From Thalassotalea euphylliae (lineage in GTDB: Bacteria; Pseudomonadota; Gammaproteobacteria; Enterobacterales; Alteromonadaceae), in NCBI RefSeq assembly GCF_003390395.1, contig NZ_QUOV01000001.1, positions 4,216,001 through 4,280,000 of the forward strand: 64,000 bases of DNA. The letters run 5' to 3'. The notes under the pieces were generated by a model. The model was not told the origin of the DNA, did not search any database, and saw only the letters and a list, made by a program, of their open reading frames with translations. Each line of letters opens with the position of its first letter. The first letter of the stretch is position 1. A program made the translations under genes and the position numbers. Below, piece by piece: positions 2,962 through 9,340 of this stretch.

Positions 2962-5172
2962 CTAAATAAAATTCACTGTCTTATTCATAGGTAGCTCGCG
3001 AATGCGCTTAGCTGTTGCAGCAAAAATCGCATTAGCAAGAGCAGGGGCCGCCGGTGGTACGCCCGGTTCGCCAATGCCTTTAATGGACTGATTGTTTTCC
3101 AGTACTTTAATGTGAAATTCCGGTACTTGGTTCAGACGCATCCCTTGATATTGATGATAGTTCGTCTGCTGAGGTGCATAGTTATCGTACGTCAGCTCAC
3201 AATTGATGGCGTGCCCTAGCCCCCAAATCGCAGCGCCAAACAGTTGCGCCTCAACATTAACCGGATCTAGCACTAGGCCAACATCAGCCACAATATAAAC
3301 CTTGTCGATACGAATCCCTGCCGGTGTGTTCGTCACATCAACCACATAAGCACAGGCAACGCCAAATGAGCGAGTCATAGCCACTCCGCGCCCACGGTTT
3401 TTACTTGGCTTACTGCCTTGCCAGTTAGCAAGTTCAGCTAAGGTTGCCAAGACTTGATCGGCAACAGGGTCGTTACATAGGCGAATACGTTCAGCCATTG
3501 GGTCTGCGCCAGCTTGCACAATAAGCTCATCTAAAAATGATTCATGGTAGAAGCCATTTTGTGAAGCGCCAACCGAGCGCCAAGAACTGATCGGCACCAT
3601 TTCTGGTGCTTTGTAGCCAGTGACTCGATAGTGTTCAATACCATAGGGTTGATCGTCGGCACCTGTGGTGATGGTGGCATCTGGCCCTGGTAGTGCGTTA
3701 TCTATTCGCCCAAACCAAGACGCCATTAATGAAGCGCTGACCAATTGCATATCCATGGCGACAACTTGTCCGTTACTGACTCGGCCTTTTGCTTTTGCAA
3801 GCGTCATTGGCCTTGGGTAATCGTGACTCATGTCTTCTTCGCGTGACCATGTCATTTTTACTGGTGTGCCTTTCATTGCCATGGCGATTTCCACCGCTTG
3901 TAATACGTAAGTATCTTCTAAACGGCGACCAAAACTGCCGCCCATTGGCAGCACGTGCAAGTGAACATTCGCTTTGGCATAGCCCGTAAGTTGGGCAACA
4001 TGATTTTCAATAAAACGGGGAATTTGAGTGCCTGTCCAAATGTCGATGCGGGTATCGGTTATCAACACTGTCGCATTCATTGGCTCTAATGGCGCATGGG
4101 CTAAATAGGGGGTGCGGTATTCAGCACTGACTAACTCTGATGGTGTGCCGCTCGCTAACACTTGTTCAACACGCCCGTTATCAAGGCGCTGAATATTCTC
4201 AAATTCAGGTTGAATATGGTTTTCAAGTACTTGCCACATTTGCGCTGAATTGGCGGGATAGGGGGCTGGTTGCCATTCAATTTCAATCGCATTTACCGCT
4301 TTAAAAGCTCGCCACGTGTTGTCAGCAACCACCGCAACACCATTAGTAATCGGCATAACCCGTTTAACACCGCGCATTTTTTTAGCACTACTGGCATTGA
4401 ACGACTTTACTGGTGCCCCCAAACCAGGATTGGCGCGAACACTGGCGTAAACCATGTTATCGGCTTGCATATCAATGCCGTAATTTTGTGTTCCCGTTGA
4501 TTTGGCTAGGGTATCAAGTCGTTGATGTGGCTTGCCTAAGTACCGCCATTGGCTAGCAGGGCGCAGTGTCACCTCATTTTGAGGTGCAATATTGGCAGCA
4601 CTTGGTGCGAGTTCCTGATAACTAATTGCTCGTTCATCAGGTAAAATCACAAAGCCATTTTCTGTTGTTAATGCCTCAAGTGGCACATTGTAGACAACAG
4701 ACGCCGCCATTTTTAACGTTTCACGAGCAACCGCTCCTGCCATACGCAAACGCTGATATAAATCTGGTACCGTTGAACTGCCGCCGGTAATTTGAAAACC
4801 CAACAACTTACCGATAACATCGCCAAAACCAGGCATAGCTTCGTCAATGACGGCGCCATTATAGTAAGCCAAACTTGGCTTACCTGGGCTAAGAGTCACT
4901 TGATAGGGGTCAACATCAAGCTCTTCTGCAAGCAACATGGCCTGAAGTGAATATACTCCTTGGCCTTTGTCAGCCCGTGGGGTTATTAAAGTCACGCCAT
5001 TGGCATCAATTTTAACGAATGGCGTTAATGCTGCCTCACCTTCTTTTAATCCATCGAGCAACGGGTTGTCTGCAGGCGTTAGATATTTATAGGTACCAAA
5101 GGCAATACCACCGGCAATTGCCGCAGAGCCGATTAAGAAAGTGCGACGGGTGAATGTGCCAAGCTTACTCAT
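2962..5172 (-). CDS. iorB: Molybdopterin-binding (large) subunit of an aldehyde/isoquinoline 1-oxidoreductase-type enzyme
   Basis: The protein of about 736 aa belongs to the xanthine oxidase family, IorB type. It begins [22 protein letters not shown], a twin-arginine signal that exports the folded cofactor enzyme. The C-terminal [16 protein letters not shown] holds the conserved active-site Glu next to molybdenum. The start at 5172 is preferred because it overlaps the end of the small subunit by 8 bp; a longer frame to 5286 would run into iorA coding sequence. Substrate cannot be read from sequence: aldehydes or N-heterocycles are usual. No cofactor-maturation genes lie nearby. Confidence 0.88.
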
Positions 5173-5638
5173 CAGCAGCCCCTTGGCGCAAAAGCTTACT
5201 AGCGCTATAAATCGCTTGTTTGATACGAGGGTAACTGCCACAACGACATAAGTTGCCCGACATGGCGGCATCAATATCACTGTCACTCGGGGTAGGGTTA
5301 AACGCCAATAGGGCGGCGGCTTGCATCATCTGGCCCGACTGACAATACCCACATTGCGCCACTTGATGCTCGGCCCATGCTTGTTGCACCGCATGCATCG
5401 CTTGAGGTGTTCCAAGTCCTTCAATGGTGGTAATTTTTTGGCCGTCTACCATTTGTGCTTGTAACTGGCATGAGCGCATCGCGGTGCCATTAAAGTGGAC
5501 AGTGCAGGCACCACATTGCGCTAGGCCACAACCAAACTTAGTGCCCGTTAGTCCCAATTCATCACGCAGTACCCAAAGTAGTGGCATATCATCCTCGACA
5601 TCAACCTCTACGGCGCTACCGTTTAATTCAAATTTCAT
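5165..5638 (-). CDS. iorA: (2Fe-2S)-binding small subunit of the molybdenum hydroxylase
   Basis: The 157-aa protein has two iron-sulfur modules. The N-terminal plant-ferredoxin-like cluster motif is [17 protein letters not shown]...MRSC, and the C-terminal four-helix cluster is [10 protein letters not shown]...[12 protein letters not shown]. It passes electrons from the molybdenum site of IorB to an outside acceptor, in this two-subunit family usually a cytochrome c. It has no leader of its own, so it is expected to cross the membrane with Tat-tagged IorB. Translation is coupled to iorB through the ATGAGTAA overlap. Confidence 0.92.
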
Positions 5639-5857
5639 GATTCCATTCCATTAGTTATCAGCCAGCTCACGAGCAATAGCTTTTTTATTGAGTCTTGTCA
5701 GTAGCATACAATTTAGCATGAAGATGCTCAAACTTTGTACTAACGTTAATAGGCAGAGTTACGATGTGTTGCGCGCTTTAGATTCATTCCATCTGTCCTC
5801 CATACTCAATGCCGCCGAAAGGCAATGTTAACTAGATTAACCACAAAGGACGTGCAC

Positions 5858-8800
5858 ATGAGACATTGGCGACCATCGCTTGATACCCGCAATCAAAGCA
5901 AAGTAAATGAGTTTTGGGTGTTATTCGACACGATTATCAATGAAGCCATTTCACTAGAACCGCTTAAAAGTGCCCAGCAAAAAAATGGCGAAGTCTTTCC
6001 CTACTATATTCAACGGCGCTCTTATTTTTCAGCAGAAACGTTAGAAAAACTGAAGAGTAAAATCAGCATAAAATTCAAGCACTATCAATTAGGTGAACAG
6101 GAAATTGATTTAATTGGTATGTTGACCAATTACAGTGGCAGAAGACAAATTGCGATAGTGGGTCATCGTGGGGTCGGCAAATCGTCATTTATCAATTATG
6201 TTAGCTGGGTTATCCAACAGTCAGGGGTCAACGAAGGCTCACAATTCCTCAATATTGATTGTCGCGCCATAATCGAAAGCGAAGGAAAAATCAGCTTGTG
6301 TCAGCTTTTCTACGACGCAGTTGAAGCACTACCTAGCGAGGTTTTTGGCCGAGAGTTATTGAAAAAAGTTAAAGCAATTCTCAAAGAAGACAAAACCGAG
6401 AGTATTACTGGTGCACTCACACATTTGAGCCGGCAGTTACAAAAGCCACAAAAAGACAAGTTGGTCGTGGTTTTTGATAATTTAGATCATCTGCATTGCG
6501 ACTTCATTGCCAAAGCAACCGCGTTATCACGGCAAATTAGCATTCAAACCGACTTGCCAACTATTGTGTGCATTCGTCCCAACAGTATGCAGCGCCTTGC
6601 ATTGCGGGGAAATTCCCGAGCTATGTTTGGTTATCGACTTAATTTGTCACCACCTGATTTTACTGTTTGGTTTAACATGTTGGGTGAGCGTGTGGTCAAC
6701 ACCTTTATGAAGCATCGCAGCAGCAATAAAACCACCTATAAACTCTACAATCGTACGGTCACCAAAACTAATCTACTGAACTTTTTTTCAAGCGTGAATC
6801 ACCTACTGCGTGGTCGCCAACCTGATGATGATGTATTTAAGCTGATGGAAACCATTAGCTCTGATGACACTCGCCATTTAGCCTTAATTATTATGCGCTT
6901 ATTTTGTCATCATGGATTTCCGGTTTACCCATTGTTCTTGCAAAAAACAATAGAAGGGCATTTGCATCATCCTTTGCATTACTTGATGCGCGCTGAACAC
7001 GATATCTACCGCAGTGACACGTCGTTGATCACTATTCCAAACCTGCTATACGTCGAGTGTGGTAATGAAGAATCTTATTTATTGCCATATCGTACTTTAT
7101 CGCTGATTGCCGATGGTGTGATCATCTACAAAAACATAGTCGCTTGTTTAAATTTGATGGGCTATTCCGAACGTTTAGTCCAACAGACCTTAAACAAACT
7201 GATGTTGACTCTGTTAATTCGTGGCACGACCTCGGTTTCGATTGATCGCGTAGGTGAACCAGAAGCCTTTTATCTAACGCAGTCCGGGCATTATTACGTG
7301 GAATCGTTTATCAGCACACCAGATTACCTCACTAATGTAATGCTTGACGTGAAAGCCGAGCACAAGTCCTTCTATACATACTGCAATAGCCGCAAAAGCG
7401 ATACAGAGTTTACACCTAGGCTTGTTGACCTACTTGATTCAATTGAAGAGTACTTAAAAAAGGCATTTGAATTAGAAAAGTCAGCACTAACTAAGTTGAC
7501 GTCAAAACCGAAAAGTGAACCTTTATATCAACTAACGAAGTCGATTCATAATTTTGGTTTTCTCACTGATCGTATTTGGGAAGGACTAACATCGCTACTC
7601 AAGCGCATAGATGGCAGTAAATTTAAGCGGTTAGCTGAAATTGAATTAATGGCACAAGAAGTAATTGAAGAGGTGCACTCATTTCGCGAACACCGATTTC
7701 AAGAACTCCTTAACAAGTGCACTAACGAACACAATTTTGAACATTGCGAGCTAGACTTCAATATCCAAGAAACCAATGTTCAACTGCTGCTCGACAATGG
7801 TATGGGAGGCACCAATATCAAAGTAGCAGTAGACGCCAATGGCTCCTATACCAGAGATTCAACTTACCTTATCGCATTAGCGGCTAACGATGGTGAAGGT
7901 GAGGTTTATTACGCAACGAAAGCAACCGGCTATTTTAATTCTGCGCACCAGAAATCTCAGTACATTAGGAATTATCAAACCTTTCCAAGCTTGAATTTGC
8001 CATTTGAACAAGCCTGTGAAAAACAGCGCTATAACGTCAAACTAACGCAAGTCACCCCAAGTCGCGAGGATATCGTGCGTTCGAATCTGGCGATCATCAA
8101 CACTTACCTGAATCAAAATACCCTAAAAATTGTCTTATCGATTGTTGGCGGCGACGACTGCAGCGAACACATCATCGGCTCACATGCTGATTTTCCGGCG
8201 CTTCAAAGCTTAGTGGACGAACAAGTGTCGAGCATTAGTGCCTTAGCAAGCCAAGGAAAGTTAACCCATGCCGCACTTGATGTTGCAGGTTCTACACTGG
8301 CGTCGAATATTCTTACCCCTGAAGGCGAATCATTGCTTGCCACCCATTTGCATATGGTGAATAAAGCCGTGTTGTGCATCAATCGTGAGCTTCTAGGCAT
8401 CCCTTGGGAGTGGATTAGACCGCGTCCGAAACCAGGTGCCCAAACCTTAGCAATAGGTCAGGCATGGCATCTTTATCGCAACGTGTTGGATGACAGCAAT
8501 TTTGTCAAAATTGACTTCACCGCATTTGATTATCAGCTTTCGACTGATAAATATTTAGCATTCGGCATTCAGCCTGCTGAAGAGATTGAGCAAACGGTAA
8601 ATACGCCAAGTTCACTACCTGAGCTTTACCAGCATTTAGAGTCCAGTAGCATTATTCACTTGGTTGGGCATCATGATGAAAGCAATGCCAACATAGTGTT
8701 GGGCGAAAGTAGTATCGGTAGTATTGACGATCACAAGCTTACGATTAATTACGCAGAAGCAGACGCATATAGCTTTGAGGGTAAAGATAGCCTGCTAGTG

Positions 8801-9055
8801 CTATCGTCTTGTGGCGTATCACTATCACCTTATCACAACAATATCGCGATCAAACTATGTGAGCGAAACGGCTGCGAAGTTTGGTCGCCCCTGATCATTA
8901 TTCCTTACCAATACGCCCAACAATTACATCATCATTTCGCCCAGCTTCACCAGCAAGAACAAGAAATGTCGATTGCTGCTGTATGGGAGCATGTCATGAA
9001 ATGCGATACAACGATCGCAGAGCGTATTTACACCCGCTATTTAAATATGGAGTAG
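5858..9055 (+). CDS. P-loop NTPase fused to a C-terminal CHAT caspase-like protease
   Basis: The 1065-aa protein starts at 5858, where AAAGGA lies 7 nt before the ATG; the longer frame from 5825 has no such signal. Residues about 90-400 form an AAA/STAND-like NTPase: Walker A GHRGVGKSS (about 102-110), Walker B LVVVFDNLDHL (about 202-212) and a following TIVCIRP strand. Residues about 400-640 look helical (a winged-helix-like lid and coiled stretch). Residues about 640-860 form an unrecognised beta-rich part. The C-terminal 200 residues are a CHAT domain: LGIPWEW entry motif, IIHLVGHHDES with the catalytic His near 938, and LLVLSSCGVS with Cys near 985. Such proteins act as NTP-gated protease effectors in bacterial conflict systems. 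It is coupled to the next gene. The trigger and target are unknown. Confidence 0.85.
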   Translation: MRHWRPSLDTRNQSKVNEFWVLFDTIINEAISLEPLKSAQQKNGEVFPYYIQRRSYFSAETLEKLKSKISIKFKHYQLGEQEIDLIGMLTNYSGRRQIAIVGHRGVGKSSFINYVSWVIQQSGVNEGSQFLNIDCRAIIESEGKISLCQLFYDAVEALPSEVFGRELLKKVKAILKEDKTESITGALTHLSRQLQKPQKDKLVVVFDNLDHLHCDFIAKATALSRQISIQTDLPTIVCIRPNSMQRLALRGNSRAMFGYRLNLSPPDFTVWFNMLGERVVNTFMKHRSSNKTTYKLYNRTVTKTNLLNFFSSVNHLLRGRQPDDDVFKLMETISSDDTRHLALIIMRLFCHHGFPVYPLFLQKTIEGHLHHPLHYLMRAEHDIYRSDTSLITIPNLLYVECGNEESYLLPYRTLSLIADGVIIYKNIVACLNLMGYSERLVQQTLNKLMLTLLIRGTTSVSIDRVGEPEAFYLTQSGHYYVESFISTPDYLTNVMLDVKAEHKSFYTYCNSRKSDTEFTPRLVDLLDSIEEYLKKAFELEKSALTKLTSKPKSEPLYQLTKSIHNFGFLTDRIWEGLTSLLKRIDGSKFKRLAEIELMAQEVIEEVHSFREHRFQELLNKCTNEHNFEHCELDFNIQETNVQLLLDNGMGGTNIKVAVDANGSYTRDSTYLIALAANDGEGEVYYATKATGYFNSAHQKSQYIRNYQTFPSLNLPFEQACEKQRYNVKLTQVTPSREDIVRSNLAIINTYLNQNTLKIVLSIVGGDDCSEHIIGSHADFPALQSLVDEQVSSISALASQGKLTHAALDVAGSTLASNILTPEGESLLATHLHMVNKAVLCINRELLGIPWEWIRPRPKPGAQTLAIGQAWHLYRNVLDDSNFVKIDFTAFDYQLSTDKYLAFGIQPAEEIEQTVNTPSSLPELYQHLESSSIIHLVGHHDESNANIVLGESSIGSIDDHKLTINYAEADAYSFEGKDSLLVLSSCGVSLSPYHNNIAIKLCERNGCEVWSPLIIIPYQYAQQLHHHFAQLHQQEQEMSIAAVWEHVMKCDTTIAERIYTRYLNME

Positions 9056-9058
9056 CTA

Positions 9059-9340
9059 ATGGATTCATTTGAATTGGAAATCAACGAGCAAGATTTACCC
9101 ATTGACGTAAAAAACAAATTAGAAATCGCTAATGCCGAGCAAGAAAATTTAGGCGTGGTAGATAATGTTAAAGAAGTGCTGTCAGCAAATTTCGGTAAAA
9201 TAGTGCTATCAAAAGTATCTTCAATTATTCCTGATGCCTACGAAATCAATGAGCTCAGCTTTTCAGTATCACTAAAAGGTGAGTTGTTTGGCAATGGCTT
9301 TAATACGCAAGTAACCGTTAAAGTGAAGCCGGTAAAATGA
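9059..9340 (+). CDS. Small partner protein, resembles trypsin-co-occurring (Trypco1-like) domain
   Basis: The 93-aa acidic protein begins 3 bp after the NTPase-CHAT stop, with GGAG of its ribosome-binding site lying inside that gene, so the two are translationally linked. The C-terminal half (IIPDAYEINELSFSVSLKGEL followed by a FNTQVTVKVK strand) follows the pattern of small proteins that accompany trypsin-like and CHAT effectors: a helix, then a PDE-V-V-F-S-LKGE strand, then a polar loop and a final beta strand. This assignment is by eye only. It may bind or restrain the protease, or present the sensed signal. It has no signal peptide or membrane segment. Confidence 0.6.
   Translation: MDSFELEINEQDLPIDVKNKLEIANAEQENLGVVDNVKEVLSANFGKIVLSKVSSIIPDAYEINELSFSVSLKGELFGNGFNTQVTVKVKPVK

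Follow-up and report, generated by a model that had tools for sequence, protein, structure and literature searches.

A candidate NTPase-switched CHAT protease cassette with a small acidic partner in Thalassotalea euphylliae

We analysed a 64,000-nucleotide stretch of the Thalassotalea euphylliae genome (contig NZ_QUOV01000001.1, positions 4,216,001 to 4,280,000; hereafter the window) and, within it, a cassette of two genes encoding a protein of 1065 amino acids (aa) and, 3 bp further on, an acidic protein of 93 aa. On balance we lean to the view that the cassette comprises a divergent CHAT protease switched by a nucleoside triphosphatase (NTPase), together with a small partner, and acts in defence or growth arrest by the mechanism outlined below. 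The best reading of the large protein, judged from its sequence, is an AAA/STAND-like P-loop switch ATPase with a winged-helix-like region and a C-terminal CHAT output. Profile comparisons demonstrate that its NTPase module is homologous to restriction-nuclease-NTPase fusions, and they support homology of the C-terminal region to CHAT domains with an intact His/Cys pair. Immunity is a plausible leading role, as a candidate only, because the NTPase is common to nuclease fusions on plasmids and in mobile regions.

Both open reading frames (ORFs), the Walker A and B motifs and the pair His938/Cys985 lie where the original prediction had placed them (Table 1). The longest form of the large gene given by the ORF caller begins at ATG 5825 (1076 aa); ATG 5858, with AAAGGA 7 nt upstream, is in our view the better start. 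Because of the 3-bp spacing the two genes are probably co-transcribed. Matches to promoters and terminators were no better than chance.

Two relatives of the large protein were found in a collection of 5.8 billion clustered proteins, where the 7995 candidates sharing most short words were scored: a 99% one from a sister species and a 48% full-length one from a metagenome contig (P0004). The C-terminal part used as query retrieved the same two. The motifs GKSS of Walker A and FDNLD of Walker B, as well as His938 and Cys985, are identical in P0004. The small protein has one relative, 99% identical.

The C-terminal region and CHAT proteases

The C-terminal region is, on profile comparison, very probably a divergent CHAT domain. 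The C-terminal pair of sequences compared with a CHAT profile scored 40.1 (P 6.7e-5), and none of 100 column shuffles exceeded 23.1; other parts of the same protein scored 15.6, 12.8 and 13.3, and a reversed-profile control about 13. In this alignment the His and Cys of CHAT line up with His938 and Cys985. As a single sequence, the C-terminus of the window protein scored 30.4, as against at most 19.8 for 60 shuffles and at most 22.9 for 29 other ORFs of the window. The first CHAT profile was built from 28 of 30 loci of the bacterial family (L023 and L025 were dropped); the second added 24 of 30 phylum loci, six with a domain span outside 200-420 aa being dropped, for 52 rows in all. Thus the CHAT domain of the original prediction holds as a profile-profile similarity with the dyad in register, and not as a Pfam or HMMER match. 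The conservation of the His/Cys pair in both relatives, one of them 99% identical, was confirmed.

Several results weigh against this assignment and against the cassette reading built on it. Pfam CHAT (PF12770) has no match above the gathering score in the full protein, and none at E values up to 10 in its C-terminal pieces. With our own CHAT profiles, HMMER scores are near zero, and the cassette protein ranks 11th of the 42 window ORFs. The C-terminus of P0004 alone scored 18.4, under the best (19.8) of the 60 shuffles of the window C-terminus. The structure model of the large protein has a mean predicted local distance difference test score (pLDDT) of 36.6 and is unusable. One possibility is that the region is a dead or chance CHAT look-alike acting as a binding scaffold, which would fit the lack of HMMER support and the extreme divergence. 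However, the His and Cys, in register with CHAT, are invariant in all three known proteins (two of them 99% alike), and we consider this explanation improbable.

The NTPase module and its nuclease-fused relatives

Pfam matches of the large protein to AAA_16 (30.2 bits, cut-off 32.6) and NACHT (18.3 bits, cut-off 26.7) are both below threshold. The plasmid search gave weak matches, confined to the NTPase part, to unnamed proteins of about 800 aa (family range about 790-960 aa), many being plasmid-borne. One such plasmid protein as query retrieved 28 plasmid records, and in 20 of these the match spans at least 80% of the query. Examples are NZ_CP022090.2, LR134124.1 and NC_020305.1, and the plasmid hosts include enterobacteria and rhizobia. 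An alignment of eight proteins was made (A4: L004, L005 and eight more plasmid records, minus L063 and L064, which have no annotated genes).

This alignment matches the window protein in profile-profile comparison over 393 columns (P 2.8e-15), at residues 93-498. Among the controls, a generic AAA protein matches residues 94-230 only, yet reaches P 2.1e-9, and a YobI-type ATPase matches at the P-loop only. The decisive sequence evidence for kinship is therefore the region after the NTPase core, which we read as helical and winged-helix-like. Compared alone with A4, it scored 54.9 (P 1.2e-7), the best of 100 shuffles reaching 21.9 and three other parts of the large protein 21.4, 14.8 and 10.7. 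Twelve positions are invariant over the ten aligned rows, those of Walker A and Walker B among them. The NTPase identity proposed in the original prediction is thus borne out by the Walker motifs and by this homology. In a tree, the window protein groups with P0004 on a long branch of uncertain placement (support 0.47).

The relatives carry a restriction-type nuclease at the N-terminus. The Pfam cut-off for HSDR_N or HSDR_N_2 was passed by four of the six plasmid proteins scanned, the other two being just below it. The two first-found plasmid proteins have no HSDR_N match, yet align with other family members. The C-terminus of L061 is an S1 domain and that of L062 consists of cold-shock domains. 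In the window protein 92 residues precede the NTPase core, as against about 260-320 in the relatives, and HSDR_N has no match. Since the nuclease is missing here and the CHAT domain sits C-terminally, the sequences suggest an exchange of effector.

Of the 266 genomes searched in the order (our own among them), six have a long NTPase match; 14 of the 20 matches are short P-loop fragments. The three non-self matches of another NTPase search were likewise short fragments around the P-loop and were rejected. At the five long-match loci other than our own, a profile derived from A4 finds the N-terminal nuclease in every case, twice weakly (E 2e-8 and 9e-6). A neighbourhood scan of these loci covered 10 of the 64 listed neighbouring ORFs. 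The surroundings of three loci look mobile or defence-linked: DUF968 and HTH_36 are neighbours at L131, TraG_N at L132, and at L133 there is an adjoining integrase core and, at a distance of a few kb, a Csy2-like Cas protein. The settings of the relatives, besides plasmids, include a prophage-like or conjugative region. At L129 and L130 ordinary genes surround the nuclease-NTPase gene. At L129 (2412-12654) it is flanked by two HrpB-type helicase genes on the same strand (839 and 823 aa). On a Paracoccus plasmid (L005:60-3665), a match to the Tmn defence model (260 bits) adjoins a nuclease-NTPase relative.

No model in PADLOC or NCBIfam names the whole nuclease-NTPase protein, matches being weak or to single domains. 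These single-gene fusions of an HSDR_N-like nuclease, an NTPase and a winged-helix-like region are a candidate undescribed defence family. They may be the more useful lead, because they are unnamed in the libraries searched and spread on plasmids. The Gifsy prophage ATPase was rejected as a relative, being a ParA-type protein according to PMC12724215.

The partner, constraint and genomic setting

That the small ORF is a genuine gene follows from the strong purifying selection on it. Against the sister genome G001, where regional DNA identity is about 95%, it has 12 synonymous changes and one non-synonymous change (ratio of non-synonymous to synonymous substitution rates, dN/dS, 0.023). The large gene has 89 and 8 changes, respectively (dN/dS 0.025). 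In the absence of constraint, amino-acid changes would be this scarce with a binomial probability of 1.2e-7 for the small gene and 1.4e-49 for the large one. The dN/dS values of flanking genes are 0 (LysR), 0.13 (Dps), 0.06 (TetR) and 0.05 (PolA). Synonymous divergence from G001 is 0.078 in the CHAT part, half that of the NTPase part (0.164).

The partner had been described as Trypco1-like, a claim for which we find no sequence support. Trypco1 and 2 are products of genes adjoining trypsin-like peptidases (PMC7159879). No match of the partner to Trypco1 (PF19493) was found by Pfam, NCBIfam or HMMER, and with hhalign scores equal to or above that of the partner were obtained by 146 of 150 shuffles in global mode and 68 of 150 in local mode, and by 84 and 41 of 102 unrelated ORFs, respectively. 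The Trypco1 profile was made from six of eight loci, with L054 (below the cut-off) and L051 (above it, missed by the motif rule) left out. No Trypco1 was found among 247 genomes of the order, nor any trypsin family among eight flanking proteins scanned. The structure model of the partner, of medium confidence (pLDDT 73.7), has a beta-alpha-alpha-beta-beta fold. The length is similar to that of Trypco1, as is the strand-helix-strand-strand order judged by eye.

No relative of the partner was found at any other of the 133 loci examined. Among 13 nuclease-NTPase genes, 10 have no ORF of 50-200 aa starting within 100 bp downstream, and the small ORFs downstream of the remaining three are unlike the partner. 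This restriction to the protease version would agree with a toxin-antitoxin-like pair, in which the free protease is toxic and the 93-aa protein keeps it inactive, as would the 3-bp spacing, with a likely coupled start, and the acidic, strongly conserved character of the partner. However, the toxin gene would come first, which is the less usual order in such pairs, and the partner belongs to no recognised antitoxin family. We regard this explanation as quite unlikely.

On the sequence searches made, the family appears to be extremely rare. Among 98 genomes (own included) the full cassette protein occurs in our own and in G001; a third match, in G030, is spurious, with 42 residues and two stops. 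Our own genome was the sole match among 394 genomes of the order, and five of the seven genus genomes searched (own included) lack the protein. No relative of the full protein emerged when species genome contigs, viral contigs, phages and solved structures were searched, the solved structures yielding weak P-loop matches only; because such searches depend on short words or patterns in common, more distant relatives could have escaped them. The conserved pairing with the small gene that had been proposed is seen in G001 (99%), the one readable neighbourhood. We recognised no description of the NTPase-CHAT pair or of the nuclease-NTPase family in the open literature, judged by titles and the beginnings of abstracts, subscription papers being mostly outside this scope.

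The cassette belongs to a four-gene block together with a divergent pair of molybdenum oxidoreductase genes, and the stand-alone module originally proposed holds in part only. In the sister genome G006 dps and tetR are 42 bp apart, as against 6.5 kb in the window. Orthologues of the oxidoreductase large subunit (99-100%) occur in G000 and G001 only among the seven genus genomes, other matches being at 31-40%. Since these orthologues are confined to G000 and G001 and the block is absent from G006, it was either gained by the ancestor of the former two or lost in the latter. The G+C content is 0.47-0.50 over the oxidoreductase genes and 0.41-0.45, the same as in the surroundings, over the cassette; this contrast weighs mildly against a single foreign block. 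No direct repeat framing the four genes as ends of a mobile element was found. The flanking polA matched the PADLOC PolA-like DRT model and was read as ordinary polA.

This setting also bears on a non-immune explanation, regulated proteolysis, in which the NTPase would sense a metabolic or stress state and the CHAT domain process a regulator; the trigger would perhaps be tied to the oxidoreductase pair or to the dps neighbourhood. The cassette is chromosomal, a scan of nine flanking proteins turned up no dedicated defence gene, and purifying selection is as strong as in the neighbouring genes. All this favours regulated proteolysis, as does the joint presence or absence of cassette and oxidoreductase genes in the sole comparison made (G006). 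To the points already raised against a defence cassette should be added this lack of defence neighbours, and also the strong constraint and the one chromosomal site occupied in both sister species, unlike a fast-moving defence gene. On the other hand, absence from five of the seven genus genomes, with a single find elsewhere, and NTPase relatives that carry nucleases, some of them with mobile elements, speak against regulated proteolysis, which is possible but rather unlikely.

Table 1. Features of the cassette and its surroundings (window positions) and of plasmid relatives (locus and positions).
Feature	Position	Strand	Basis or remark
Four-gene block: MoCoBD and Fer2 oxidoreductase genes (-), cassette (+)	2962..9340		Missing from the dps-tetR interval of G006
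Molybdopterin oxidoreductase (MoCoBD) and [2Fe-2S] subunit genes, divergent from cassette	2962-5638	-	
Predicted NTPase-CHAT fusion protein, 1065 aa	5858..9055	+	ORF; dN/dS 0.025
Small acidic partner, 93 aa, isoelectric point 4.51	9059..9340	+	ORF; sole relative found is the 99% one
Shine-Dalgarno-like AAAGGA ahead of ATG 5858	5845..5850	+	Read from sequence
Shine-Dalgarno-like GGAG of small gene, within 3' end of large gene	9049..9052	+	Read from sequence
NTPase core and following region, residues 93-498	6134..7351	+	Common to HSDR_N nuclease-NTPase proteins
Walker A GHRGVGKSS, residues 102-110	6161..6187	+	G-G-G-K-F positions invariant in 10 rows
Walker B VVVFDNLDH, residues 203-211	6464..6490	+	D-N-x-D invariant in 10 rows
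Probable CHAT domain, divergent (residues about 801-1065, of which about 927-1033 match the profile)	8258..9055	+	Profile-profile comparison
Candidate catalytic His938 codon	8669..8671	+	In register with CHAT His
Candidate catalytic Cys985 codon	8810..8812	+	In register with CHAT Cys
Plasmid nuclease-NTPase gene	L004:4113-6554		
Plasmid nuclease-NTPase gene	L059:3944-6394		
Plasmid nuclease-NTPase gene	L060:3944-6388		
Plasmid nuclease-NTPase gene	L061:3377-6061		
Plasmid nuclease-NTPase gene	L062:3929-6802		
Plasmid nuclease-NTPase gene	L065:3929-6451		
Plasmid nuclease-NTPase gene	L066:3827-6439		

Proposed mechanism and known systems

In the reading that we favour, a defence or arrest cassette, an infection- or damage-related ligand would bind the product of gene 1. 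This ligand is plausibly DNA or a DNA-processing complex, given the restriction nuclease of the relatives and the S1 or cold-shock domains found in two of those scanned. Binding would cause the protein to rearrange or assemble in an ATP-dependent manner, bringing order to the CHAT active site; the ordered protease would then cleave the 93-aa partner or one or a few of the host's proteins, with arrest of growth or a defence response as the outcome. The partner is most likely a substrate, brake or activator of the protease, since it accompanies the protease version and is not found with the nuclease versions. A tentative, more specific proposal is an immune switch with exchanged effector, in which CHAT would replace the nuclease on the nuclease-NTPase chassis and the dedicated partner would be cut by the protease or hold it. 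If true, a single NTPase switch would drive a DNA-cutting or a protein-cutting output, and the trigger could be tested by comparing both forms.

The HSDR_N nuclease-NTPase proteins thus resemble the cassette protein in the NTPase core and winged-helix-like region, and differ in the nuclease and in having nothing akin to the partner next to the 13 genes examined. Bacterial NLR/STAND proteins (Avs, bNACHT) also join a P-loop switch to an effector; in the cassette, unlike these, the effector is C-terminal, there is no Pfam repeat sensor, and the matches stay below the NACHT and AAA_16 cut-offs.

Among CHAT proteases, including Csx29/TPR-CHAT and Borvo, the likeness consists of the C-terminal His/Cys pair and profile-level similarity. 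Csx29 is switched on by target RNA binding and cuts Csx30 (PMC10028731), and Borvo and type III-E have been placed under PF12770 (PMC10952713). Unlike these proteases, the cassette protein has an NTPase instead of tetratricopeptide repeats (TPR) and no Pfam CHAT match; no Cas or TPR match that would indicate a type III-E CRISPR system (Cas7-11/gRAMP, TPR) was found in the cassette or in eight flanking proteins. A library scan for homology to Borvo gave only mad8/mad3 matches, via the NTPase, the presence of a Borvo model in the library not being established.

A pro-nuclease can be activated by a protease that is part of a defence-protein fusion or comes as a pair with a second gene, and caspase homologues are present in further systems (PMC12799240). 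The Canu caspase-nuclease systems of the same paper resemble the cassette in having a caspase-superfamily protease beside a second gene. Unlike them, the cassette has no Pfam match to a metallo-beta-lactamase (MBL) nuclease or an Ig-like domain, and its partner is of 93 aa; no MBL-fold nuclease was found downstream, where the next genes are of the tetR and CMD families. If the proposed switch with exchanged effector is true, it would give bacterial immunity a compact and very rare protease system, one that is caspase-like, gated by nucleoside triphosphate and distinct from the CRISPR, Thoeris, gasdermin, Canu and NLR/Avs types.

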